Below the pieces are notes generated by a model. That model was given only the letters and a program-made list of their open reading frames with translations. It was not told where the DNA came from and did no database searches. Source: Candidatus Onthoplasma faecigallinarum (lineage in GTDB: Bacteria; Bacillota; Clostridia; Christensenellales; UBA1242). Taken from it: DNA of 35,134 nucleotides. The stretch is from NCBI GenBank assembly GCA_018715225.1, contig DVMB01000071.1, forward strand, positions 1-35,134, written 5' to 3'. The position numbers and the translations under genes are program-made. Below, piece after piece: positions 5,231-25,954 of this stretch (position 1 is the first letter of the stretch; each line of letters begins with the position of its first letter).

Positions 5231-8200
5231 CTAACTAAATTCTAATGTGAATATATATGTGGTCATTTCATTCACTGTATCGTACAGGTTGATGACGTCG
5301 ACATTCACATTCTCATAAATTGAATTGCTGTAGTAAGAATTTATGTCGGCAACAATCGTTTCAATCGTAGAGTTAGAAGGTAGAGAGGTATTCCCCATCA
5401 TAGCACTTCTGCTGACCCTAAATTCGAAACTGCTCCTATTTGATTCGTTCACCAACAATTGATTGTATTTAGCATACAGAACTGCGTTCATGACGTATGC
5501 TTGTAATTGACTATAGCCTTGGGTTCGGTCGTATATTTGATATGTAACCTGACCATTTTCAATATATTCTTTCATATAAGTGAAGTCATCTATATCGCTT
5601 CCTGCTCCGCTGATAGTAGCGTTGATTTCATCTACTGTCATGCCAAAGGTTGCGTTTGCATAATAATCATATGTCGTGTTGCTGACTGGAAGATTGACCA
5701 AATTGCTCTCTAATAAATTTAGATGTTCGCTTAAGAAACTGTCTGTAACTAAGAAATACAAGTGCGAGGACATACCATAGCAATCTCTAAAATTATAAGG
5801 AACATAATAGTTGTCCGAATAAGTCAAATCTAATGAATACCATATTCGTGCATTGTTGTTGTCGGTAACGTCTAGATAGACTTTGTTCCAACTGTGATCT
5901 ATGCTGACATTATCGCCATTCAAGACGTAGGTATATGTCCCGTTGACTTTCCTCGTCTCTATTCCCTCTATTGCACATAGTAGAGTGAAGGCTTTTGAAT
6001 ATGCTTCTGCTGTCGCATTCCTGTTGCCGAGATAAAATTCGCCGTCATGTCCGCCCACTGCACTATTGTTCAAATCATAGAAAATACCTTCTATATAAAA
6101 TTCTTTCCTTAATCCATAATCAGCGACCGTTCCTTCCACTATTGATCCACCAGAAGTGGTCCTGTTCGCATAGTAGTTCAAATTGTATGCATATTCCAAC
6201 CAATCGAATATCGCAGTAACTTTTTCTAAATCTGTCATATTGTTGTTGATAATCGCAACCAAGACAGATTTTGCGTTGGCATACACCTGCTCTGCCACTG
6301 CACTATCCCCAACAAATCTTGGTTTTCTGCCGTATTGTACCGCCATCAATAATTGTTCGGTAGTGGTTACGTCCATCTCAGGTAGAGAATCTATCGCAAA
6401 ACTTGTAGTCGTGTTTCTCCTAGAGTAGATGTCCAAATACTGATAGTCATTGCCGTAATCGGTAGCCAGTTGAATATATGTGTTTGGAGTATCCACCTTT
6501 GGCTCATCTAATAGATTTTCATAATATATTTTGAACATTTGACTATTTGTATCGTGTGATACATTGATCTCGCTCAATACATTTAATTCTGGATATAGTT
6601 CAAGAAGTTTTTCACATAGATAACTAAAAATCGTACTTTCACTGGATGATTCAAGATGACCCAACCAAACATCATCGCCCGCAAAATTATATAATACTGA
6701 ATCGGTCGCTTCTTGAGCCAAACGCTCTAACGCCTCTACCACACTCTCTCCTTCATTTAGACGCAGATACATGCTGAGCATGTGTTCATCATCTACTCCA
6801 AATAGATAATGATACCACAACAAGTTCATTAAGTCGTTCACATCGTCAATGGCAAAATCATAATAACTTCCATACATATACACCGAATATCTCTCAAAAT
6901 CATGTTGAATGGTGTATGTGTAGTAGATAGACCAGTCATCACTGAATGGACTAGAGGTATATTCCATAGCGTTGTTCCCGGTAGAATTTACCATTGATTT
7001 TATGGATACTAAATAGTTTCCTTCTACCGTAATACTATCGTTGATGTTGTACATATCCGTGTCATACGCATGATATTCATCTATTTCGCCATTAGGATCA
7101 GTAACTCTAATGATATAATAATCAGCATGGTCGTCCCCCGTCCATGTAACCAAGAATTCGTCTGCAGAATTATTGGCATATCGTATATCTGTCGGGGTGT
7201 TTAATGTCGTCAATTTATTTAGTACTGCATATGTGCTTGATTCGTCCGAATCTCCATAATAACTATTTTTAGGAGCCAGAGCCGTAACATAAATATAATA
7301 TTCTCCCGCCTGACGAACATATTCTGTAATATCGGTCGATTGTATAACCTCGAACGGATTTTGTAGCCCTAAATCGTATAGATAATCTGTATAAGTGCCA
7401 TCATTGATCTTGACAATTCGCACTCTGTATGAAGCCGCATTGTCCTGCATGTCAAAAGACAACGTATAGATACCATCATTCTCTGCAACTCGTATGTTGG
7501 TCACCTGATTCAACTGCATTGTTAGGACAAATTCGTATGTGGCGTAACTGCTTGGCTTGACGCTTTCGCTATCGCTTGGCAAGGCTCTAACCATAATCGT
7601 ATAACTATTGGCAGATGATACGTAATTCGTGATGTCTACTTCATATAAATTTAAGCCAAAAGTAGCAGGGACATTGATTGTATTGAAGTTTACCATCACT
7701 TCGTATCTTGAGGCAAATTCTACCCCATAAAAACATAGATAATAATATGTCCTTCCATTTATTACCCTTCGAACGACTGGAGCGGGCTCATTGCTATCAT
7801 TTCTCAAAAATTCTGGAGTCGACAACACTCTTTGATGAGAGACTACCAACGAGCCTAGACTCGTCAACGCACTATTTGTGTACCCGCTATAAGGTGCTGC
7901 CACCGCCTGAATCTGCACATAATAATCTCTATATTCGCCCTCTTTTATGATGTACTGAGATAAGTCAATCACAGTGGAGGTAAACAATCTATTGATCCTC
8001 ACCGCTTCGGTATTGTCTCTCCCCATCAAGTATACATAATAGCCAATCGCATTATTAACTCCAGTAAAGGTCAACACATATGGTTCGCTATCTTGGAACC
8101 CTTGTCCGCTACCGATTATTGGAGTAGCCAACTGTATGGTATAACTCAATTCTGCTCTCACAGTCTTGATTGCAAAGTCAGCAGATATTATATGTATAGT

Positions 8201-9682
8201 GATATGTTCTATTACGCCATCGTATGCCAACAAATCTATATAGTTAGTTTGTAGCATGACGATATTGTTGTCCAATTCCACAATATATGTAGCACCTGGC
8301 ACTTCCGTCCATTGAACACCATTATTTGATAGAGAAATCTCTATATCTTCATCTATCGTTGAAGAAGTTTTATTCACAAAATTACTAAAAGGACTTGATA
8401 TATATGCCCCTTGTCCTACCGCTTGAACAAACACTACATTATAATCGTCTGGAAGAGTAAAAGTGCTGATATTTTTGTCCAAGGTGTATTTATCAACAAG
8501 ACTATTATTTTCTGTAAATATGTAGAGATTAAATCCACTTGTATTGCTGAGATTTTCTCCCACCCAACTCGCAATATATCTTTGACTCAATTCATCAAAA
8601 TTTACTTCCAAAACAGGAGCCTCTAGTCTAGTTGTGTTTGAATAATATGTAGCAGTTGTAAAATTCGAATCTATATAATATTTTTCTTGTTCATTAGTCG
8701 TAACATAATTTGCCTGTACTCTAAACTCATACTGCTTTAGTTGCGTCAAGTCAAGAGTCGCTCCATTGATCACAACATCTCTAAAGAATACATTAAGATT
8801 GATGTCCACCATATTGTCCGTCATGCTAAGAGATGGCTCGACAGAGTTTAATTCAATGGTCTTGACATACTCGCCTGAGCGAATGGTAATGGCATTGGCG
8901 TTTGGATCTAGCACAGTTATAAGGTGCAATAACTCCTCTCCTCCCACGCTCGTCACGCTATAAATTGATGGCGATGTAGGGGTATCTAGTGGTACTTCAT
9001 TGAAATATACTGTCTTGCTGGTATATCCGCTGTCTGTATAACGGCTGTCATAACTCACTGCATTGACATAAAATTTATAATATCCCGCCCCTGTCAACAA
9101 TGAAGAAAAATCAAATCTATTTGTACTAAACTGATATGATGATATTTCTGTAGAATTCGCTACACTTTCAGCATCGTCTAGGGCAAGGTCGTCATACGGA
9201 GTAACCACTTTTACTAGATAAAAACTAGCATTTTCTACCGCCTCCCAAGTGAGAACTGTACCATTTATCTGCACATTGTTAGGTTTAGACATCTGTATGG
9301 TATGAGTATACGAAATTGTATTTGTATAATCACTTGACCTTTTGCTCTCTCCTCTAGCCTGTACTCGTATACTATAACTTTCTCCCAAAACAAAAATCTT
9401 TGACGCATCGTATTGCAGGTAATTTATACCATTGTATGTATATAGATCAACGAAATTGCTCTCTAGCGGAAAGACATTTAATTCCACATCGTTAATCGCT
9501 ATTGTATAATAATCTTCGCTCTCATCCTCATTTGAACTGCGTTCAAAAGTGATGAGTCCGCCCGTCTCTACAGTCAAATTGTTTGGAGTCTCAAGAGTCT
9601 GCCTGTTGAAATTGGAACACCCCGTAATCAAAAAAGGCAACACCAAACATATAGATAAAACTAAAATTTTAAATTTTTTCAT
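5231..9682 (-). CDS. Giant lipoprotein (1483 aa) with tandem fibronectin-III-like domains and a C-terminal transglutaminase-like domain
   Basis: Lipobox LVLPFLITGC; repeated FnIII-like units (LDTPTSPSI..., LSTPEFLRN...); TGc-like ATAEAYSKAFTLLCAIEGIETRKVNG...DHSWNKVYLD...WYSLDLTYSD; SD AGGGG. Confidence 0.8.
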   Translation of the reverse strand: MKKFKILVLSICLVLPFLITGCSNFNRQTLETPNNLTVETGGLITFERSSNEDESEDYYTIAINDVELNVFPLESNFVDLYTYNGINYLQYDASKIFVLGESYSIRVQARGESKRSSDYTNTISYTHTIQMSKPNNVQINGTVLTWEAVENASFYLVKVVTPYDDLALDDAESVANSTEISSYQFSTNRFDFSSLLTGAGYYKFYVNAVSYDSRYTDSGYTSKTVYFNEVPLDTPTSPSIYSVTSVGGEELLHLITVLDPNANAITIRSGEYVKTIELNSVEPSLSMTDNMVDINLNVFFRDVVINGATLDLTQLKQYEFRVQANYVTTNEQEKYYIDSNFTTATYYSNTTRLEAPVLEVNFDELSQRYIASWVGENLSNTSGFNLYIFTENNSLVDKYTLDKNISTFTLPDDYNVVFVQAVGQGAYISSPFSNFVNKTSSTIDEDIEISLSNNGVQWTEVPGATYIVELDNNIVMLQTNYIDLLAYDGVIEHITIHIISADFAIKTVRAELSYTIQLATPIIGSGQGFQDSEPYVLTFTGVNNAIGYYVYLMGRDNTEAVRINRLFTSTVIDLSQYIIKEGEYRDYYVQIQAVAAPYSGYTNSALTSLGSLVVSHQRVLSTPEFLRNDSNEPAPVVRRVINGRTYYYLCFYGVEFASRYEVMVNFNTINVPATFGLNLYEVDITNYVSSANSYTIMVRALPSDSESVKPSSYATYEFVLTMQLNQVTNIRVAENDGIYTLSFDMQDNAASYRVRIVKINDGTYTDYLYDLGLQNPFEVIQSTDITEYVRQAGEYYIYVTALAPKNSYYGDSDESSTYAVLNKLTTLNTPTDIRYANNSADEFLVTWTGDDHADYYIIRVTDPNGEIDEYHAYDTDMYNINDSITVEGNYLVSIKSMVNSTGNNAMEYTSSPFSDDWSIYYTYTIQHDFERYSVYMYGSYYDFAIDDVNDLMNLLWYHYLFGVDDEHMLSMYLRLNEGESVVEALERLAQEATDSVLYNFAGDDVWLGHLESSSESTIFSYLCEKLLELYPELNVLSEINVSHDTNSQMFKIYYENLLDEPKVDTPNTYIQLATDYGNDYQYLDIYSRRNTTTSFAIDSLPEMDVTTTEQLLMAVQYGRKPRFVGDSAVAEQVYANAKSVLVAIINNNMTDLEKVTAIFDWLEYAYNLNYYANRTTSGGSIVEGTVADYGLRKEFYIEGIFYDLNNSAVGGHDGEFYLGNRNATAEAYSKAFTLLCAIEGIETRKVNGTYTYVLNGDNVSIDHSWNKVYLDVTDNNNARIWYSLDLTYSDNYYVPYNFRDCYGMSSHLYFLVTDSFLSEHLNLLESNLVNLPVSNTTYDYYANATFGMTVDEINATISGAGSDIDDFTYMKEYIENGQVTYQIYDRTQGYSQLQAYVMNAVLYAKYNQLLVNESNRSSFEFRVSRSAMMGNTSLPSNSTIETIVADINSYYSNSIYENVNVDVINLYDTVNEMTTYIFTLEFS

Positions 9683-14679: not shown

Positions 14680-14976
14680 ATGATAAAAAATTTAGTAAAA
14701 ATAAAATCCATCTCAAAAAAAGCAAAATGGAAAGATACAAAATGTAACATACATGTCATGCCCCCAACAATCACTGATGACGACATCACGGCGCTTTTCA
14801 ATGGCATACTAAATGTCATGCGAAAGAAAATAGAACTTGAGACTCGTGCCGAAATCATAAATATGAATGTCAACATTGAAAAGATAATGAAACAACTTAA
14901 CGAGAAAAAAGCAGAGTGTATAAGACTAAAAAATGAAATTTTGTATCTAAAATCAAAATACAACTATATCAAATAG
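14680..14976 (+). CDS. Small hypothetical protein with C-terminal coiled coil
   Basis: 98-aa ORF with heptad-like C-terminus (NIEKIMKQLNEKKAECIRLKNEILYLKSK). Confidence 0.5.
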   Translation: MIKNLVKIKSISKKAKWKDTKCNIHVMPPTITDDDITALFNGILNVMRKKIELETRAEIINMNVNIEKIMKQLNEKKAECIRLKNEILYLKSKYNYIK

Positions 14977-15384
14977 TACTTCTATGTCTATTGCATAATT
15001 TTTTACACCTTTATCTATCGCAAAATCAATCATAGAGTTTACAATATGCCGATTTTTTTCCGTAGACAAAAATATAGCGTCAATAGAGTTTTCTATAAGA
15101 TATTTAGTCAACTCTATGTTGTCCGTATTCATAATTTTGTCCAAATTAAATTTTGACTTGGAGTTATTAAAAACCATTATTGGCATTACCTTTCTACCTT
15201 TCGCCCTATCCCTCAGTTTGTCATATATCCGCTTTTCAAAATCGCCAAAACTATCTACATATATTTCATGATAGACGTATGCAATAGAGTCTACGATCTC
15301 TACTAACTTTTTTATAACTACATCATCAAAAAACTTTCTCTCAACAATTCCGTATCCTATTATAAAGCATTTTTTCATAAGCAA
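14953..15384 (-). CDS. SLOG/DUF1273-like Rossmann-fold protein
   Basis: Start likely TTG (15384; AGGAG 7 nt upstream) or ATG (15378). IYVDSFGDFEKRIYDKLRDRAK resembles the F-YVG-x-GxFD segment of DUF1273-like proteins; N-terminal beta strand KKCFIIGYG. Confidence 0.5.
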   Translation of the reverse strand: MLMKKCFIIGYGIVERKFFDDVVIKKLVEIVDSIAYVYHEIYVDSFGDFEKRIYDKLRDRAKGRKVMPIMVFNNSKSKFNLDKIMNTDNIELTKYLIENSIDAIFLSTEKNRHIVNSMIDFAIDKGVKNYAIDIEVLFDIVVF

Positions 15385-15409
15385 AATTTTTCTCCTTTGT
15401 GCTTTTTCT

Positions 15410-15441
15410 ATTATATACGTATAGATTTCTATACGTATAAT
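15410..15441. promoter_or_regulatory. Divergent overlapping promoters around a perfect operator-like dyad
   Basis: TATACGTATAGA-TT-TCTATACGTATA (15414-15439); TATAAT on the minus strand at 15415-15410 and on the plus strand at 15436-15441. Confidence 0.6.
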
Positions 15442-15468
15442 TAAATTGATAACGTTTATCATAATAAT

Positions 15469-15708
15469 ATGAAAATAAACAAGGCTTTTGCATTAAAATT
15501 GTCGAAAATTATGTACGAAAAGGGCATTTCAAAATACAAACTTGAAAAAAAGACAGGTCTGTCACATGCAACTTTTCGAAATATTTTCAATGAAGTAAAT
15601 AGTGATATAATGTTTTCAACAATTATAAATATTTTGTCGGCGTTGGGCATTGAATTGAAAGATTTTTTTGACGATGAATTGTTTGATTACAAAAATCTAG
15701 ATTATTAG
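15469..15708 (+). CDS. XRE-family HTH transcriptional regulator
   Basis: ALKLSKIMYEKGISKYKLEKKTGLSHATFRNIFNEVNSDIMFSTIINILSALGIELKDFF: Cro/CI-type HTH. Confidence 0.9.
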   Translation: MKINKAFALKLSKIMYEKGISKYKLEKKTGLSHATFRNIFNEVNSDIMFSTIINILSALGIELKDFFDDELFDYKNLDY

Positions 15709-15733
15709 TTGAAAAACATGAATTTTCGATTTT

Positions 15734-15757
15734 GTCAAATGATTTTGACTTTTTTTT
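15734..15757 (+). terminator. Intrinsic terminator after the XRE gene
   Basis: GTCAAA-TGAT-TTTGAC followed by T8. Confidence 0.6.
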
Positions 15758-15776
15758 CGTTTTTTTAAAAAATTAT

Positions 15777-15805
15777 TTGCATAAAAAAAATAAAATTGCT
15801 ATATT
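15777..15805 (+). promoter_or_regulatory. Putative sigma-A promoter of the DAC-like gene
   Basis: TTGCAT (15777-15782), N17, TATATT (15800-15805), 21 nt before the ATG. Confidence 0.55.
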
Positions 15806-15826
15806 GTTTTAAAAGCGAGTTGAATT

Positions 15827-17044
15827 ATGGAAGAGATGATTTTTTTTGACAATGCAAAAGAAAACGTAACAAATTTTTTTGAAAAAGAATTTGAAAATTT
15901 TCCACCACTTTTGATGTCCAACTTTTTGAACAAATTTAATGATATCCTCAATTACAGCGAAGAAGGCAAGAGCATTAAACCAAGAATAATTTTCACTGAC
16001 AACATTGAAGCGATAATTAGAACCTTTCCAAAATCAAATGCTCTCACCATCTTTGAAGACGCTGAACCGACCATGTTCAACTCAAGGTTGAAATCGATCC
16101 TAGCGATTACACGTAATGACTGGTGTCTATTCGTGGATATAAAAGAAAACAAAATAACATACGGCCTAGTCATGTCGTTTAGAAGCATAAAGGACAAAAA
16201 ATTTCTTCAACAACTGGAAGAAAATACTACCCTAAAAGATAGACCCACAAAGATTCACTGCGTCGTGATTCGACCACTAAATTTCTTCACCATGTACCTA
16301 CACTCAATTTCGGGCAATGACTTGGTAGTCAATTTCGCTCTCGACAAATCAAAGAACAATATCTTTTCAACGGAAATTAAAGAATTTGTAGATGCAACAT
16401 TTTCAAAACTTAGGACAACTCAACGCAAACTGCAAGACATGAAAAATATGTATATAAATATTTTCACAAACGTCATGAGCGATGTAAATGGTGCAATATG
16501 CGTCATTGTGGACAAAGATTATAAAGACAATGGTCTCTTCGCTGACGGCATTTGGCTGAAAGAGCCAATAAGTTTTAGCAAACTATTCACTCAGTCAAAA
16601 AGTTATAGCGAAGAAAAACTGCAAGCCTATGCCGAACTATTCATCAACATGCTAAATTTTGACGGCATTACTATCATAGACAATCAAGGACGTATTCTTG
16701 CCTACAATGTGTTCGTAGAGCCAAATTCAAAAAAGGTTGGATACATCGTCGGTGGAGCAAGAAAGAGAGCCGCCTATTTCATCTTGAGTAGCAAGCGTAA
16801 AGGTATAGTGGGCGTCTATTTTCAGTCTCATGAGGGGGAAGTATTCTTCCAAGAGATTAAAAAACCTATTAGAAAATCTCAAATCAAAAAACCAGATCCA
16901 AAACCTGAGCCAAAAGCAGAGCCAAAACCCGAACCTAAGCCCGAGACTAAAGCCGACATCAACCCTGAGATTAAACTCGACTTGAACCCTGAGATAAAAA
17001 TTGACACTAAGACTGCTGAGATTGTAGCGGTAGAGGAAAATTAA
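15827..17044 (+). CDS. DisA_N / DAC-like nucleotide-binding domain protein with EPKP-rich C-terminal tail
   Basis: FNSRLKSILAITRNDWCLFVDIKENKITYGLVMSFRSI sensor-like segment, then DGITIIDNQGRILAYNVFV...GGARKRAAYFILSSKRKGIVGVYFQSHEGEVFF, matching DGA and GTRHRAA motifs of the DAC fold; tail DPKPEPKAEPKPEPKPETK. Confidence 0.7.
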   Translation: MEEMIFFDNAKENVTNFFEKEFENFPPLLMSNFLNKFNDILNYSEEGKSIKPRIIFTDNIEAIIRTFPKSNALTIFEDAEPTMFNSRLKSILAITRNDWCLFVDIKENKITYGLVMSFRSIKDKKFLQQLEENTTLKDRPTKIHCVVIRPLNFFTMYLHSISGNDLVVNFALDKSKNNIFSTEIKEFVDATFSKLRTTQRKLQDMKNMYINIFTNVMSDVNGAICVIVDKDYKDNGLFADGIWLKEPISFSKLFTQSKSYSEEKLQAYAELFINMLNFDGITIIDNQGRILAYNVFVEPNSKKVGYIVGGARKRAAYFILSSKRKGIVGVYFQSHEGEVFFQEIKKPIRKSQIKKPDPKPEPKAEPKPEPKPETKADINPEIKLDLNPEIKIDTKTAEIVAVEEN

Positions 17045-17086: not shown

Positions 17087-17819
17087 ACTTCTTTTTGAAC
17101 TTGATGACTGTTCTAAAAATGGTCTTGTCCACGCACTTGCCTTCAATATAGTAATATGATTTATACTTTTTTCGATATATGTCTATCTTGTCCCCTTCAT
17201 GACTTTCGTTGACAAAATAGATTTCATATTCCTTAATATCCATTGACTTCATCTCATCTACAGAAAAACAATCTAACGCCATAAAATTATATTTCAAATT
17301 GTTCGTGTGATTGTTGACATCTATATCAGTCGATCGAATTGTCTTCGTGTAGACATAGTCATCTTTATCAACATCTAACTTCATATTGGTGTAATTAGTC
17401 GGTATCTTTTTTGTCTCCACCATCTCTAATTGTGGGAAATTTATTGAATTACCTTTCCTTATTCTTCTCGTTTCGTAATCTAGACAACACCATTCAGCGA
17501 TAGCTTTGGCTTTTATTGAAGAGCCCACTTTCAATTCGCAGGCCCTGTCAAACCTGATCATACCTGGTTCATAGGTCCAGGTCTTGACCGTTGCTTTGTC
17601 CCCACTCTTTAGAGAACCAGTTACCAGCAATTTCATCTTGCTGACTATCCAAAAAGCGTTGCTCGTCTTTATCATATTGTCATGGTCTAGCCCGATGCTA
17701 TCCGCATGATTGAAAGTCGCAATCTCAAGCATTCGCATAATTTCAGTAATAGGAACTCTCATTTCATAATCTATGCTGGTATCATCGACCACCAATTTTT
17801 CTTTGTACATATTTTTCAT
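17085..17819 (-). CDS. Acyl-ACP thioesterase (FatA/FatB-like double hotdog)
   Basis: EIMRMLEIATFNHADSIGLD, ...AFWIVSKMKLLV, RFDRACEL, second hotdog IRSTDIDVNNHTNNLKYNFMALD. Confidence 0.85.
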   Translation of the reverse strand: MKNMYKEKLVVDDTSIDYEMRVPITEIMRMLEIATFNHADSIGLDHDNMIKTSNAFWIVSKMKLLVTGSLKSGDKATVKTWTYEPGMIRFDRACELKVGSSIKAKAIAEWCCLDYETRRIRKGNSINFPQLEMVETKKIPTNYTNMKLDVDKDDYVYTKTIRSTDIDVNNHTNNLKYNFMALDCFSVDEMKSMDIKEYEIYFVNESHEGDKIDIYRKKYKSYYYIEGKCVDKTIFRTVIKFKKK

Positions 17820-20800
17820 TATCTTATCCTCATTCTAGTTCTTAATACAATTATGACGGTTACCACTGTGATAACAACTGCCACAACTACAACAATAATT
17901 ATTATCGCCCACACGTTCAATGGTTCTTTTATTACAGACTTGAAGCTCAGTATTACATTCCCCGAACTACTTTCAAGCCTGATGTAATAATCGCCTGCTC
18001 CGTTCTCGCTTTCTGTAATCGTGTATTGCATCTGCTCAACTGCTGAATTCTCATTGATCTCTGTTACAAGTATATCGTTGATATACAGATAACTATCCCC
18101 TACCTGGTCATAAATAATGCCTGGGTTAAATGTTATTGTGAAGCCGTCTGTAGTCGTCTCTCCCGTAGGTAGAGAGCATTCTATATTAGGAGTTTCATTG
18201 TTCATCGTAAACAAGAAGGTTATCTCTCTTCTAGGATAAATTCCGTCATCTACAACATATGTCATTGTAAATGTCTGTTTACCAGAAGCGATCCCCAATT
18301 CAGCACTATTTTCCATCAATTTATCATACGTCAACAACATTCCATTCACACTACTATTCATATTTAGCATATTTAGGAATGTATCCGTAACGTCTCTTCC
18401 ATATCCGTTGATGACAGAAGAAATTTCATAATTACTTAGGCTCGTAAAATCAATAGACACACGGGCTTCATTTTCATTGACGATTGTGAAGATCAAAACT
18501 TTTCTTAAACTCAACCCATTGTAGTTGGCGGTAACCGTAACTCTATATGTGCCGTAATCCGTGAAAGTATAATTATATTGTGATTTGATAGGAGAGTATG
18601 ATTGACCATTGCGTGTAGCGACTAGATCAATTGAACCCAAATCATAGATAGACGGACTATATACACTTATCTCTACTTCTCCGTTGTAATAAGCGTAATC
18701 GATAGGTGCTGTGCCGTTTACTGTTACTGCCACTTCTCTTAAGACAATGATATCTAGATTGGTTTGTGTAGTACCATAGGTTGTTGTAAACACATGTGAA
18801 TTTCCCGCCAAATCTTTGAATACAAATGAATATTTTCCGTTCCCCTCTATCTCGTACTCTACATTCGCTCCATTGTTCTGTTCGTCAATTGTAGATACCA
18901 AGACGTCGTTGTAATACACCTCGAGAACAATGCTATTTTTCCTGATCACATAATTGTTTAGTGCCAGTACTTGTCCAAAGGATAATACATATTCAGTCGT
19001 GCTAGCATCACTATAGACGAATGATAGGTTATTATTAGTAGATAGGTTATCTGTATTTAATCTTATATTTTGTACAATGGTTTCCAAATTAGGAACTTGC
19101 AATATACCTAAATACAGGCTATATGTCGTAGTCGCTATTCGATAAATTTTGAAGACATAACCCGTCGTGCCAATCTCAGCTTCAAATTGTGTCATGGTAG
19201 CCCCTTGGTCCGCCGCCACTATCACAAATAATTCCTCATTGCTGATATACAATGGTATATTTGTGTTGACCGAATTCAAATCAGGAGCTGTAGCCTCTTC
19301 TGTCAGTTTTAGACTTCCCGCAACCGAGTTCGCTGTAATATTAAACACTGCCAGATTCGTGTCCGCAAACAATTCCTGGAATCTAAATGTTGAGTTGGAA
19401 GATACTGCCACATTGTTGCCCGTCTGTACATAATATAGTTGATTAATCATTGATTGAACTGAGAAGGTATAAACTTTGTTCCCTAGATACAACCCCTCTA
19501 CCGTGTAAATCTCTATCTCAAACTTGTATGTACCAGTGCTATCTTGGCTCGTATTGATCACATAATTAGTTTGATTATCTAGTTGAGTCGTAACATATTC
19601 GCCATCTTGCATCAATTCGTGTATTGAATAATAATACCTAAAGTAATCATTAGTTGGAACTGTCCAGGATAGATTCATTGTACCAGAAGTCGTGCTAGTA
19701 TAAATGGTATCCTCATAATTTGTATTGATGTCGATGTTCATATTTTGACTTACATTGTTGGTATCTCTCAAAGTTACCGTACCTGTAGTCGAATCCAGAA
19801 CAATATTATATCCAAATTCATATTCGTTGTTGTATATGAACTGAACTCTCACTTGCAAAATTGCCCCCGCATAATTTGATCCAATGAATGGATATACGAC
19901 AATATTACCATTTTCTCTGTCTATCTCAATGATGGTTATTCCGTTGTAAGTTACAACATTTTGATCGACTGACACTGTGAGATTTTCTCCATTTATATTG
20001 TAAGTTATATTCAATTCATATAAAGATGTGTCGTATGAGATATTGGCTTGATTGAAAGTGTAGTATGTGTTATTTGTCTCATAATAATTTGCAGTCCCAT
20101 CCTCTCCAAAGGACAAACTATAAAATTCTTCGCCCGAAGTGTTGAACCTATAGGTTGAAACTGTCCCAAACGCATCTGTCATAACAATTTGATATGTACC
20201 GCTCAGGTTTGTCAAGATGTGCGATGCAACTGGCTCTAAATTTGAACCATTGACGATGTAATAATTATACTCGTTGTCGCTAGGTATACATCTATAAGTA
20301 GTAGACTCATTGTTATGAATTATCTGTATTTGTTCGGCGTAGTAGACTATGTTGTTGTAAGTCTCATTTGCCCCTTGCAAATTTATCACATATTGCCCAT
20401 CCCTGAATTCTACCAGATTGGCGACATTCAACTCTATTCTGTCATCTGCGTCATAATAATTTAGCGTGCCAGAATATGTATTCGTCCTCGACCTTATTGT
20501 AAAGATATAATTACCTCGTCCAGCATTCTTTACCATATCTATGATTTTTTGTGCCAACTCTGTGCCGACAAAATCATCTGTGCCATTTGTATTGATTGCA
20601 ACTGTCTCTCCCGATGCTAAATTCGTCAATTCAAATCTATAGAATTTATCCACAACAGAATTGAATACATCCACACTTGGCAAAGCCAAATCAAATATAG
20701 TCAAACTGTCATTCATTGTGTCTGTAGATAAGTCAAATACTCTGTTGCTTGCTGAAATGACTCCCGAATTTACAGTAGTCAAATTTAACGTCATGGTCAA

Positions 20801-23800
20801 ATTGTCATATTCTTGGTCTGCATAGAGCACGACATATTGTGTCATATTCCCAGCCGAGTCAATTTCCAAAATTTCCACATATCTACCCTGCTCGCTATAG
20901 GTCAAAATTCCACCATATGTAGATACAAGAGCTAGCGAACTTGCGGCAGTATAACCTGCAAAATTAGTAATAGGCAAACTTAAATTCACTTCGCTAAGGT
21001 CATTTATTGACCTAAAATACACTCTGTCAACATCTGTGTTGTCAAATGGAGTGTTTGCATTCACTACAAAGGCATAGATTTTGCCCGCATTTGAAGTTGT
21101 ATAATATGCGTCATATCTATTGACGAAATATATCCCCGCATTAGTTTCATAAATATAATTAGAAAACATTTCTGTCTCGTTCTCTAAATTATAGTACTCG
21201 ACCAACGTATCATTTTCTACTAAATAATCTATATTGTTTTCAGGTGGGATACGATCTATAATTACTCTATACCTTGTCTCGTAATAAGTTACTAAATTGC
21301 CATTGGCGTCATAGTAATAATAACAATCTATATATCTATTGCTAACACTGTTCCCGCTAAGTTTGTATCTTATAACTATATCATAATATAAGGTGTCATT
21401 GATAGAATCGTAATTGATATTTCCGGAAGAATCACGCAAATAAGTATTCAAATATATCACTCTAGACACGACATTGCCTGAATCGTCTCGTATGTTTTGA
21501 ACAGCACTGGAGTCCGTATTCAAATCAAACTCGCCACCAGTGTTGGAATACTCGTATCTTATATAATCGGTAGTCCTGCCATTTTGCGTCCTGGTAACTA
21601 TCAAATAATTGATATCAACCTGTGCTGTGGTACTATCAACATTGTATTCGTTTAAGTTTATCTTGACGAATTCTTCGCTAGTAGTCAACACATATGTACC
21701 ATCATTATTCGCCTCACTGGCAACGTAATAAGCACTATCCACTCCCAAATCGCTTTCTGGTACCGAATAAACATCTGTTGTTGGGTTGCTTGTCTCGATC
21801 CTAAAGCCTATGATCTTGCTATGACTTCCCGTCGTGCCTACCACAAGGTCTTTGATTATGACAACATAATCTCCAGGAAGACACAACCAATCGGTCTCAT
21901 TGTTCCCACGTATAAAGATCTCTTGTAACGGATTGGACAAATATTGAGTCATATCGATATTGTAATAGTTTCCGTCATAGTTAGATGTGTCGGCACTATC
22001 TGTGGTGTCTATACTGAAAAGTTTTATGGTCGTTCCACGACTGCTTCCGCTCAGTTGATTTTGCCTATCCACAAAATACACATCAAATACCAGTCTCCCT
22101 GCATAATAATTTGAGCCGTATCTTCCGCCGAAATATTTGCCTACTGGTATACTTAGCGTTGCAGGCAATTTATCTGTCCTCAAGTACAAATCATATCTTT
22201 GATTGCTGATATTGTCCTGTATGTAACTGAATGTTGAATTGTCTGTATTGATTTGTGAAAATTCATTGAATTCGGTTTCATTCTCTAAGAGATTGATAGT
22301 TATAAAGCCACCATTTATGTCATTGTTTCTATCTATGATATCATTTCTATCCACAATGAAATAATAATTTTGCACCCAACTATCTTCGCCAAAGTCGGTC
22401 GATTCGTCGCCAACATATCTACGCTCAATGACATACAATCCAGCACGAGTCATTCCGTCTACGACATTGATTAGAGCAAAACCTTGCGTCCCTGAATTGA
22501 ACGATCGTGCTCCGTTCGAGAACGCACCATTGGAATACAATGTGATTTCATTGACGAAAGAATAATATTTGAGATTTGTCCTATCTGCGTTCCAATTGTC
22601 AGTATAGTTGTCCTCACTCAAATTCAACTCATAGAATCGATATGTAATCGAGCCAACTTCGTACGTACCTGTACCCATGTTCCAGACAAAAGCCACATAA
22701 TTGTCGCTAGTAGCCATGGCACCATCAATACCATTATAGGTTATATCCTCAACTGTATTGTCGCTACCAGTATCTAGAATCGTCCCTGAAGAGATGGTAT
22801 CATTGTCGACATTGATCGCATCTTGGCTATAATACACTGTACCACGTGAGTTGTCTTTGTTGATAGTGAGGGTTACAAACGAGTTGGAATCTTGCGAGTC
22901 GGTTATGGTTTGGTTCTCGCTCATCAAATACAACACCCTTATCATGCTGGTCGAAGCAGAAGCCACATACTGCATTGTGCGTGTATGATTCGACGCCGTT
23001 ATATTTTGAATAGATAGTGAGTTATCTAAAATTCCAAGGTTAGAATAAGCAGTCAGCGAATTGTTCTGTACTGTCAAATAATAACTATTGTCATTAGGTA
23101 AATATGTAAAAATTCTACCTAGAGCCGCTGTATTAGTACCGCTCTCCAAGAAATAGTCATTGTCCTGATATTCTCCCTTGATGAGAGAATATAGTTCATT
23201 TGTCTTTTCGTCGCTCGTGGCGTTAGAGTCCATCAACTTGAACACTTTGTGCGTTCCAACTTCAAACTCTATGTCATCGCCATACAGCAAAGACGCACCT
23301 GTTACCATCTCGCCTTCGACTTTGAAATACGCTTCCGTATTGTCAATGACGAACATATATTTGCATGTAAAGCCCGCTTCATCTGTCAGCGTGAATACAT
23401 AAATTCCTTGATTGAATAAAATATTTGATATTTGTACTTGGCTACCTATTGAATCTACCCTAGATATATCAAACGAGCCAATGGTCGTTCCCAATTCATA
23501 ATTCGTAGTGTACCATATCGCACTGTCGGACAGATAGACTTCGCTTGCACTGAGATTGTTGTTTCTCACAAATGGTGTGTAAGTATATGTTGCAGTGATG
23601 TTTGCTCCGCTGGCTTTGTCGTTCCAATACAATGTAACATAACTATCTATTATTGAACTGGTAACTCTAATGTATTCTCCCGAACTCGTTGTCTTGAATT
23701 CATAAGAAGTCGAATTATCCACATTGGAGACTGCTTCCACTGCATAAGGCATAACCCCCGAGATTGGTTGTCTATCTATAGTAAACATTCTATAAGTCGC

Positions 23801-25954
23801 TGCACTACCTTCGCTGATCAATTCAATCAAATATACTGCGAATTGCCCATTTTGAATATTTTGACCAATTAGATCCCCGCTCGTCAATGCGGTGTAATTT
23901 AAATTCAAGAGTTGATCTTTTGTGTACACTTGATTTACGATATAATAATATCTCGCTGTGATTTCACGTTCAAACACATCTGGCTGAGCCCATGTGATGA
24001 TCACATTTTTATTCGTATATCTCCCTGAACCAACGACCTCCCCGTCTTCTGTATTTACATTTATATTTATAGTGTCAGTGGTGTATCTAAAAGCAAAGAT
24101 TTGATAATATCCCTCTGCATTGGTTGGAGTAACATAGATAAATACCAAATAATATCCCGTCCTGTTGAACGACACTTGGTTTGTGTAATTTATGCTTGTT
24201 GAGATGATCTCATCGTTTGAAGTTGTGTATAGACTTGTAGGGCTTATCGCACTCGTCGAGTAGAAATAGAAACTTCTATTCAAACTGAAAGTATCATTAC
24301 TGCTAAGCCACAAAGAGCCTTGATTTGTCTTTTCGTATGTGATCTCGCCCAAGATTTCTGCCACACTATTTATAGCATCGGCATTTGCCGTTGGATCATC
24401 TAGTAATGTGTCATAGTTTTGTACATTATCCGCAAAAGCGTCCGCATCAAAACTAGAATTTATATCATTGATTTTATGATTGATTGTCGCATCTTGATAT
24501 GACCAAACAGTACCTACTTTTGTAGGAGTTTCTGTATTTGAAAATTCTGTTTTGAAGTCATAAGATAGTCCCAAACCGTCAATAGATGGTTCCGCACCGA
24601 ATAGATAACCATTTGGCACAACCAAGTCCACGCCCGCACCAGCATCTTTTGACAAGAGCAAATATCTCATCTGTGCTTCCTGATAATTTGCCTTTGAATA
24701 TTTCAATTCAAAGCCGTGTATATTCAATGCTTGATTGGATATTGTTAAGTTCATATCTGGCATATTGTCCGCATTGTAGCCCGAATATACATACTCAAAC
24801 GAGAAATTATAACTACCCACTTCGGTCAATAATAATACAACTATATTGTTTGTGGCATTTATATCGTACTCCCCTAAGTTGTACGTCTCATACCTTGTCC
24901 CCGAAGAAGATGTGATTGTGCAAACTAAGTTGGCAGTCGTCCCTCCTATAGTCGTATTAGTTGTGTAATCATAGTCGTATGTAGTAACTCTTCCATTTGC
25001 GGTCAGCGTATAACTCATCTTATATTTTGTATAATCGTATGTAAGCGTAGGATAATTTGCTGATGTTTGCCCTAGATTGTATTGCAAAACATTCGACGCA
25101 TCCGTAGTAAGACTCACTCCCTCGCACTCTATCGTAGGCTGTGCATTGTACTGAAATCCGTTATGGCTGATCATCCCATCATAAGAAGATTCATATAAAA
25201 TATAAAAGTTAAATGTTTGGAAATATGTTACATTGTTATATCTATATGTAATATTGAACTCGTAGTACCCTTCATTGCCGTCCACTTGCGGAATTATGTA
25301 TACAAAATCTTGATACAAGTTGTTGTCATATTGTCTCACGCCTGGCAAGTTGGTAATTGGCACACCATTCCTGCTGGCTTGTACATTGATATATTGAATG
25401 TTGGCTCCTGTGTTTTCTCCAGCATATTCTGCAGACGTTGTCCCATTGACAAACACATATTGACCAAATGACACCATCACGGCCTCCGCCAAACTGACTG
25501 GCTCATAGGTTTGCGAGTCTTCATCATATACAAATCCCGTCTGTGAATTTGTATATCCAGATGATGAGATGTCGTTATTCAACATTACAAAATCGCCATT
25601 ATGGATTATATATCTATCCTGCCCATCATTCGAGATATCATCAAAATAATATGCACCATCTCTCGTCAACATTGAATTATATACAGTATCTAATGATTGA
25701 GCATCATATAGTGGGGTTGTGAATGGAGAGTCGTCTTCAATCTCGTCATTTGTGGAAATTACATTTACCTTTTCCACCGCCAGCACAATATTGTTGCTAT
25801 CCACCGCACTAAATTCAGGATTGTTGCTAAGTTCGGCAGCAAAGACAGTTTCTCGTCCTTTATAATTAAAATTTATTGACAAACAAATACCGGCTGTGAG
25901 CAACACAACCATTATTATTAATATTTTATTGATTAATTTAACTTTCCCCTTCAA
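17819..25954 (-). CDS. Giant (2711 aa) secreted, membrane-anchored Ig-like repeat surface protein
   Basis: Signal peptide-like N-terminus, many degenerate G-x-Y...D-xxGN...Y-x-F units, C-terminal TM VWAIIIIVVVVAVVITVVTVIIVL + RTRMRIR. TTG start with SD AAGGGGAAG. Confidence 0.8.
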   Translation of the reverse strand: MKGKVKLINKILIIMVVLLTAGICLSINFNYKGRETVFAAELSNNPEFSAVDSNNIVLAVEKVNVISTNDEIEDDSPFTTPLYDAQSLDTVYNSMLTRDGAYYFDDISNDGQDRYIIHNGDFVMLNNDISSSGYTNSQTGFVYDEDSQTYEPVSLAEAVMVSFGQYVFVNGTTSAEYAGENTGANIQYINVQASRNGVPITNLPGVRQYDNNLYQDFVYIIPQVDGNEGYYEFNITYRYNNVTYFQTFNFYILYESSYDGMISHNGFQYNAQPTIECEGVSLTTDASNVLQYNLGQTSANYPTLTYDYTKYKMSYTLTANGRVTTYDYDYTTNTTIGGTTANLVCTITSSSGTRYETYNLGEYDINATNNIVVLLLTEVGSYNFSFEYVYSGYNADNMPDMNLTISNQALNIHGFELKYSKANYQEAQMRYLLLSKDAGAGVDLVVPNGYLFGAEPSIDGLGLSYDFKTEFSNTETPTKVGTVWSYQDATINHKINDINSSFDADAFADNVQNYDTLLDDPTANADAINSVAEILGEITYEKTNQGSLWLSSNDTFSLNRSFYFYSTSAISPTSLYTTSNDEIISTSINYTNQVSFNRTGYYLVFIYVTPTNAEGYYQIFAFRYTTDTININVNTEDGEVVGSGRYTNKNVIITWAQPDVFEREITARYYYIVNQVYTKDQLLNLNYTALTSGDLIGQNIQNGQFAVYLIELISEGSAATYRMFTIDRQPISGVMPYAVEAVSNVDNSTSYEFKTTSSGEYIRVTSSIIDSYVTLYWNDKASGANITATYTYTPFVRNNNLSASEVYLSDSAIWYTTNYELGTTIGSFDISRVDSIGSQVQISNILFNQGIYVFTLTDEAGFTCKYMFVIDNTEAYFKVEGEMVTGASLLYGDDIEFEVGTHKVFKLMDSNATSDEKTNELYSLIKGEYQDNDYFLESGTNTAALGRIFTYLPNDNSYYLTVQNNSLTAYSNLGILDNSLSIQNITASNHTRTMQYVASASTSMIRVLYLMSENQTITDSQDSNSFVTLTINKDNSRGTVYYSQDAINVDNDTISSGTILDTGSDNTVEDITYNGIDGAMATSDNYVAFVWNMGTGTYEVGSITYRFYELNLSEDNYTDNWNADRTNLKYYSFVNEITLYSNGAFSNGARSFNSGTQGFALINVVDGMTRAGLYVIERRYVGDESTDFGEDSWVQNYYFIVDRNDIIDRNNDINGGFITINLLENETEFNEFSQINTDNSTFSYIQDNISNQRYDLYLRTDKLPATLSIPVGKYFGGRYGSNYYAGRLVFDVYFVDRQNQLSGSSRGTTIKLFSIDTTDSADTSNYDGNYYNIDMTQYLSNPLQEIFIRGNNETDWLCLPGDYVVIIKDLVVGTTGSHSKIIGFRIETSNPTTDVYSVPESDLGVDSAYYVASEANNDGTYVLTTSEEFVKINLNEYNVDSTTAQVDINYLIVTRTQNGRTTDYIRYEYSNTGGEFDLNTDSSAVQNIRDDSGNVVSRVIYLNTYLRDSSGNINYDSINDTLYYDIVIRYKLSGNSVSNRYIDCYYYYDANGNLVTYYETRYRVIIDRIPPENNIDYLVENDTLVEYYNLENETEMFSNYIYETNAGIYFVNRYDAYYTTSNAGKIYAFVVNANTPFDNTDVDRVYFRSINDLSEVNLSLPITNFAGYTAASSLALVSTYGGILTYSEQGRYVEILEIDSAGNMTQYVVLYADQEYDNLTMTLNLTTVNSGVISASNRVFDLSTDTMNDSLTIFDLALPSVDVFNSVVDKFYRFELTNLASGETVAINTNGTDDFVGTELAQKIIDMVKNAGRGNYIFTIRSRTNTYSGTLNYYDADDRIELNVANLVEFRDGQYVINLQGANETYNNIVYYAEQIQIIHNNESTTYRCIPSDNEYNYYIVNGSNLEPVASHILTNLSGTYQIVMTDAFGTVSTYRFNTSGEEFYSLSFGEDGTANYYETNNTYYTFNQANISYDTSLYELNITYNINGENLTVSVDQNVVTYNGITIIEIDRENGNIVVYPFIGSNYAGAILQVRVQFIYNNEYEFGYNIVLDSTTGTVTLRDTNNVSQNMNIDINTNYEDTIYTSTTSGTMNLSWTVPTNDYFRYYYSIHELMQDGEYVTTQLDNQTNYVINTSQDSTGTYKFEIEIYTVEGLYLGNKVYTFSVQSMINQLYYVQTGNNVAVSSNSTFRFQELFADTNLAVFNITANSVAGSLKLTEEATAPDLNSVNTNIPLYISNEELFVIVAADQGATMTQFEAEIGTTGYVFKIYRIATTTYSLYLGILQVPNLETIVQNIRLNTDNLSTNNNLSFVYSDASTTEYVLSFGQVLALNNYVIRKNSIVLEVYYNDVLVSTIDEQNNGANVEYEIEGNGKYSFVFKDLAGNSHVFTTTYGTTQTNLDIIVLREVAVTVNGTAPIDYAYYNGEVEISVYSPSIYDLGSIDLVATRNGQSYSPIKSQYNYTFTDYGTYRVTVTANYNGLSLRKVLIFTIVNENEARVSIDFTSLSNYEISSVINGYGRDVTDTFLNMLNMNSSVNGMLLTYDKLMENSAELGIASGKQTFTMTYVVDDGIYPRREITFLFTMNNETPNIECSLPTGETTTDGFTITFNPGIIYDQVGDSYLYINDILVTEINENSAVEQMQYTITESENGAGDYYIRLESSSGNVILSFKSVIKEPLNVWAIIIIVVVVAVVITVVTVIIVLRTRMRIR

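Follow-up and report, generated by a model that had tools for sequence, protein, structure and literature searches.

Diadenylate cyclase (DAC) enzymes have been known so far as housekeeping producers of c-di-AMP. The canonical members require a DGA and an RHR motif (PMC8573169; PMC3328451), and exchange of RHR for AAA abolishes the activity of DisA from M. tuberculosis (PMC3328451). Onthoplasma, of the GTDB family UBA1242 within the Christensenellales, comprises reduced-genome gut bacteria of farm animals, in which sporulation genes were termed unexpected (PMC12306168).

A stretch of 35,134 nucleotides from an Onthoplasma genome (1.01 Mb, 76% complete) was analysed and is referred to as the window. 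A first-pass annotation had proposed that four small ORFs within it form a nucleotide-sensing regulatory or defence module built around SLOG-like, XRE and DAC-like proteins. Nucleotide-centred signalling with a DAC-like fold was upheld for one gene, the DAC-like gene, but not for a SLOG-XRE-DAC module.

Results

Genomic setting

All four ORFs were present where they had been placed. To the left of the quartet lie pheT and a gerA-type operon, to its right ypeB, a cell-wall hydrolase gene, spoIIR, a hydrogenase gene and hisS, which agrees with its description as located between housekeeping and sporulation genes. With its gerA-type operon, ypeB and spoIIR, the window is in line with the sporulation genes noted in the published account (PMC12306168). 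No Rfam match was obtained in the window. For a genome of about 1 Mb, the window also encodes two giant proteins predicted to be surface-located or secreted, one of 2711 aa (17819-25954) and one of 1483 aa with a transglutaminase core (5231-9682).

The first ORF of the quartet (14680-14976, plus strand) encodes a coiled-coil-type protein of 98 aa with no family match in the Pfam scan. In most of the congeners sampled, it is a syntenic neighbour of the DAC-like gene. It is inverted relative to that gene at two loci (L041 and L044), so that the two do not form a fixed operon.

The SLOG-like ORF and the XRE gene

The second ORF (143 aa; 14953-15384, minus strand; alternative upstream start possible at 15462) had been assigned to SLOG/DUF1273. 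This identity is unsupported by sequence searches: no match was obtained in Pfam or NCBIfam at E <= 1 or, with the longer start, in PADLOC at E <= 0.1, and the copy in the closest sibling had no Pfam match. In a PDB sequence search, a regulator domain of the LacI/CcpA type was the only match below 0.1, and a weak one; with an E-value of 7e-4 over a poor alignment, a LacI-type assignment was dropped. The ORF is lineage-specific: of 24 Onthoplasma-type genomes searched, two had it, and of 16 genomes from other families, none. The third ORF (79 aa; 15469-15708, plus strand), which diverges from the second, is an XRE/Cro-type regulator as annotated, its HTH_26 match (7.4e-11) scoring 42.6 bits against a curated Pfam cut-off of 22.

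Among the DAC-like loci compared with 5-kb flanks, only two, those of the window and of its closest sibling (L031), had the SLOG/XRE pair between the coiled-coil gene and the DAC-like gene; the pair is an insertion common to only two species. The SLOG-like copies are 46% identical with a dN/dS of about 0.28. The XRE reading frame of the sibling is broken by two +1 shifts, for which an assembly error is possible in this MAG. A perfect palindrome with 12-bp arms, TATACGTATAGA-tt-TCTATACGTATA (15414-15439), lies between the divergent genes and is a likely XRE operator. Its location in the divergent promoter region and its conservation in the sibling suggest self-regulation of the inserted pair, which would be a recent and separate insertion, probably under its own control.

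Architecture and family of the DAC-like protein

The fourth ORF (15827-17044, plus strand) encodes a protein of 405 aa, comprising a putative sensor domain, a linker helix, a divergent DAC domain and a variable tail. Homologues were found in Candidatus Onthoplasma and in other gut MAGs labelled Clostridia or Christensenella. The N-terminal alpha/beta domain (about residues 1-190; 15827-16399, plus strand), putatively sensory or regulatory, had no family match; its YxEEG..P motif and W99/G113 are conserved as far as the prophage and plasmid members. In the full-length AF2 model, this domain was well predicted (mostly pLDDT 75-91, residues 11-170) and the C-terminal half poorly. The PDB search with that model was meaningless, which was remedied by modelling the DAC domain separately from an alignment that included prophage sequences. 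With the resulting model of residues 196-348 as query, the top 50 PDB matches were all diadenylate cyclases (DisA, CdaA, DacA, CdaM), with a best E-value of 1e-5, a probability of 1.0 and a TM of about 0.5. The DAC-like domain itself (residues 196-346; 16412-16864, plus strand; model pLDDT 80.1, pTM 0.72) matched DisA, CdaA, CdaM and DacA only. The Lys/Pro/Glu-rich tail (16874-17041, plus strand) varies in length within the genus and is missing from most other members.

The window protein had no DAC match in Pfam or NCBIfam even at E <= 1, and the Pfam gathering score for PF02457 was not reached. Across the family, PF02457 was the most recurrent Pfam match, occurring below threshold in 9 of 30 members (best 5e-4) compared with two members for the next best. 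When genomes of sister genera were searched with PF02457, their DAC-like ORFs were again matched; the alignments were in register and the scores below the cut-off. Alignment of the family profile with the CdaA of the order by hhalign gave an E-value of 0.007 at a low probability of 5.5; the elements G-A, DG(I/A), A..F and G(A/T)R(K/H)RAA were in register, and the real score was not reached by any of 200 column-shuffled alignments. Matches of the window protein to DUF816, Anti-RecBCD_p2, PARP and TonB/ClfB were single-member, coiled-coil or tail-composition matches, unrepeated in the family, and were rejected. Pfam also holds DACN-type domains, none of which matched here.

The recurrence of PF02457, the in-register CdaA alignment and the exclusively DAC structure matches bear out the DAC-like call of the first-pass annotation. 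By profile comparison and structure modelling, the ORF is a true, highly divergent member of the DAC (DisA/CdaA) family, its fold being settled as far as computation allows. A literature search of partial scope found no published description of this family and nothing relevant on DACNV-type sensor domains or on defence by DAC plus HEPN proteins. The best explanation as a whole, which we consider probable, is a so far unrecognised subfamily within the DAC superfamily, in which the N-terminal alpha/beta domain is combined with a divergent DAC domain.

Active-site signature

The active-site positions were compared among 64 family sequences, spanning Onthoplasma to plasmid members. The counterpart of the DGA motif is D279-G280-I281 (16661-16669, plus strand); all 64 sequences have DGI, so that D and G are retained and the canonical DGA is absent. 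GTRHRAA corresponds to GGARKRAA at residues 309-316 (16751-16774, plus strand), with T replaced by A, H by K and both Arg kept. This region reads A-R-[K/R/S]-R in 64/64 members, RKR in the window, and the canonical RHR is absent from all of them. S334-H-E-G (16826-16837, plus strand) is the counterpart of SEE(T)G, in which S, the acidic residue and G are kept, and S-x-[E/D]-G was likewise invariant (64/64). The CdaA proteins of the order had DGA and TRHR in 11/11 cases and SEETG or SEENG in 10/11.

Binding of nucleotide and metal is favoured by the invariance of Asp, both Arg and the S-x-acidic element. The replacement of the RHR histidine and the preceding threonine makes catalysis uncertain, and it may be lost. 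In the proposed mechanism, the N-terminal domain would sense an input and the DAC domain would bind ATP via D279, R312, R314 and S334-x-E336. On balance, the DAC domain would condense a pair of NTPs to a cyclic dinucleotide, which may be other than c-di-AMP; a non-catalytic nucleotide-binding regulator is somewhat less likely.

Conservation and distribution

The DAC-like gene was present in 33/33 sampled congeners and, within the GTDB family of the host, in 39 of 98 genomes and 19 of 42 genera. It is inherited vertically and conserved genus-wide. The core of the protein was 96% identical in amino acids between the window and its sibling at saturated synonymous sites (pN 0.02, pS 0.76), and by these substitution levels the gene is under very strong purifying selection. 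When the loci were compared with 5-kb flanks, most congeners shared one gene order: P-type ATPase, 285-aa ORF, coiled-coil ORF, DAC-like gene, thioesterase and giant surface protein. The thioesterase gene was missing from a few congener loci. Usual neighbours were matched on one side only at L042 and L047, and at the diverged loci L045, L046 and L048 none was matched. In several sister genera, the DAC-like gene appears to adjoin small ORFs that by eye resemble the sporulation/division genes yabP-yabQ-divIC (L085, L090, L092 and L095), and in others it follows pheT. Weak profile matches in other families (G327, G215, G049, G279 and G139) were not adopted; two of them, L069 and L070, seem to be shadow frames within genes of another kind.

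Of 24 genomes representing the other families of the order, 21 had a canonical DAC above the cut-off, compared with only 1 of 98 genomes of the host family; the genus itself had none. The one exception, G335 (L071), carries a canonical CdaA that is a relic or contamination (4%). MAGs are incomplete; CdaA was missing throughout the genus in many genomes, of which several are at least 95% complete. About half of the genera in the family had neither a canonical DAC nor the DAC-like protein, suggesting that c-di-AMP may be dispensable in the family and weakening the view that the DAC-like protein is its essential sole source of c-di-AMP throughout. The c-di-AMP-associated families CdAMP_rec and YbbR were absent from 36/36 family genomes tested; each was present in 9 of 24 genomes of other families, most of which lack each.

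Relatives on mobile elements and the partner gene

Full-length relatives of the DAC-like protein were detected on three IMG/VR contigs (L099, L110 and L111), apparently of Bacillus-type hosts, and on Vibrio and Agrobacterium plasmids. Homology between the window family and the prophage members extends over the full length (hhalign E 5.5e-83). Neither the DAC-like protein nor its partner had a match in the phage genome collection. At L110 and L111, the DAC-like gene has a repressor gene of the XRE-ImmA/IrrE type on one side and phage-type genes on the other. Restriction-modification genes (TdeIII and BsuBI/PstI) and a patatin plus a SMODS-like nucleotidyltransferase recur near mobile DAC-like genes, and the mobile pairs of DAC-like and partner gene are mostly situated beside restriction-modification, CBASS-like or repressor genes. 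Within 8 kb, L099 (1323-9210) encodes a TdeIII restriction endonuclease, a C5 methyltransferase, the DAC-like/partner pair and an AimR arbitrium-type receptor. On the Agrobacterium pAt plasmid (L101, 5674-10260), a CBASS-like combination of patatin and SMODS-like nucleotidyltransferase adjoins the pair. PADLOC matched no known defence system.

In 5/5 mobile-element members the next gene encodes the partner, overlapping the DAC-like gene or 1-2 bp away. These partner proteins have 441-444 aa (about 400-445 aa over all partners), and most are about 32-49% identical to one another. Within the host family, eight genomes of four genera have the partner immediately after the DAC-like gene; it was present in 8 of 39 DAC-like-positive and 0 of 59 DAC-like-negative genomes (Fisher p 4e-4), always adjoining the DAC-like gene and never found without it. 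No partner gene was found in Onthoplasma, the simplest reading of which is loss. In the DAC-like tree, the partner label changes three times and is more clustered than in shuffles; the branches of this tree are long and its root is unsafe. On mobile elements and in the few relatives that have it, the DAC-like protein would act in a translationally coupled pair with this helical partner of about 400-445 aa, which on the mobile elements would probably be the component responding to the DAC-like protein.

The DAC-linked partner matches phrog_27609 (4e-22), and its standalone homologues of about 470 aa, encoded by plasmids and prophages, have an RNHxxAAHP-type motif resembling that of HEPN proteins. 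The HEPN motif is R-x4-6-H (PMC3710099). It is present in the standalone homologues and absent from the DAC-linked partners, which may possibly be HEPN-derived. Further phrog_27609-type proteins of about 450-490 aa, mostly standalone and with a HEPN-like R-x6-H, were seen on prophages and conjugative plasmids (L119, 4731-6209; L121, L123, L125 and L127; plasmid loci L102-L107), and 75 plasmid records match. These proteins could possibly be unrecognised abortive-infection RNases. At L118 (1045-6305), a caspase-like peptidase (Peptidase_C14, 1.4e-13) is fused to the DAC-partner domain and adjoins a SIR2-like protein. Going by domain content, the fusion together with the SIR2-like gene is a candidate defence system.

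Discussion

The four ORFs are not one module, and the proposed SLOG-XRE-DAC module does not exist. What spoke for a joint role of these genes in nucleotide signalling or defence was their adjacency in the window, the XRE gene upstream of the DAC-like gene on the Vibrio plasmid and the XRE-ImmA repressor in two prophages. The genes do not co-occur in relatives, the DAC-like gene being present in all 33 congeners and the SLOG-like ORF in 2 of 24 genomes, which by itself largely refutes the module; given also the broken XRE frame of the sibling and the undetectable SLOG homology, it retains hardly any probability. The suggested link to conflict systems applies to the distant relatives of the DAC-like gene that prophages and plasmids carry, not to the gene trio of the window. 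That the gene is in Onthoplasma still a mobile defence gene and not a domesticated core gene is very unlikely: those relatives mostly adjoin defence or repressor genes, but the universal presence of the gene in the genus at a conserved syntenic position disfavours this, as do the almost unchanged amino acid sequence against saturated synonymous change and the absence of the partner.

More weight is due to a catalytically dead DAC domain that does no more than bind ATP, ADP or c-di-AMP and serves as an allosteric sensor or scaffold. The exchange of both the RHR histidine and the TRHR threonine in all 64 members and the frequent loss of the partner gene make this quite possible; the metal-binding Asp, both Arg and S-x-E/D are nevertheless invariant from prophages to Onthoplasma, which exceeds what the fold alone would need. 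Functional replacement of CdaA, with the DAC-like protein as the only c-di-AMP-producing cyclase in these cells, would fit the absence of a canonical DAC, the universality of the gene in the genus and the purifying selection on it. It is rather unlikely in view of the altered RHR motif, the many sister genera with neither protein and the absence of the CdAMP_rec and YbbR families.

As a member of an unrecognised DAC subfamily, the Onthoplasma protein would have been retained for a housekeeping role in nucleotide signalling or sensing, in a lineage from which canonical CdaA has been lost, acting alone with the partner gone. A wider scenario, in which the variant-site DAC and a HEPN-derived partner constitute an undescribed mobile module for defence by nucleotide signalling whose synthase was domesticated in Onthoplasma and reduced-genome relatives after CdaA loss, is speculative and rather improbable. 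If true, the fixed altered site, the unrecognised N-terminal domain and the conserved mobile partner would amount to a second branch of DAC signalling, possibly used in phage-bacterium conflict. With the Onthoplasma copy, the replacement of CdaA by such a protein becomes testable in cells with a 1-Mb genome.

Compared with CdaA/DacA, DisA, CdaS and CdaM (PF02457), the DAC-like protein shares the fold by structure search and the order of strands and helices, and the DG, R-x-R and S-x-acidic-G positions are in register. It differs in having DGI for DGA, A-R-[KRS]-R for T-R-H-R and S-x-[ED]-G for SEETG, and it has a different conserved N-terminal domain and neither transmembrane helices nor HhH. 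The DAC-linked partner belongs to the same family as phrog_27609 and the standalone proteins of about 470 aa but lacks their RNHxxAAHP-type R-x6-H, and the window encodes no partner of this type. In contrast to CBASS, the mobile DAC-like systems have a DAC fold instead of a CD-NTase/SMODS fold, no recognised effector and no PADLOC match. With CBASS and other nucleotide-signal defence systems they share the two-gene layout of a synthase-like protein and a partner, and the Agrobacterium copy directly adjoins a patatin and a SMODS-like nucleotidyltransferase.
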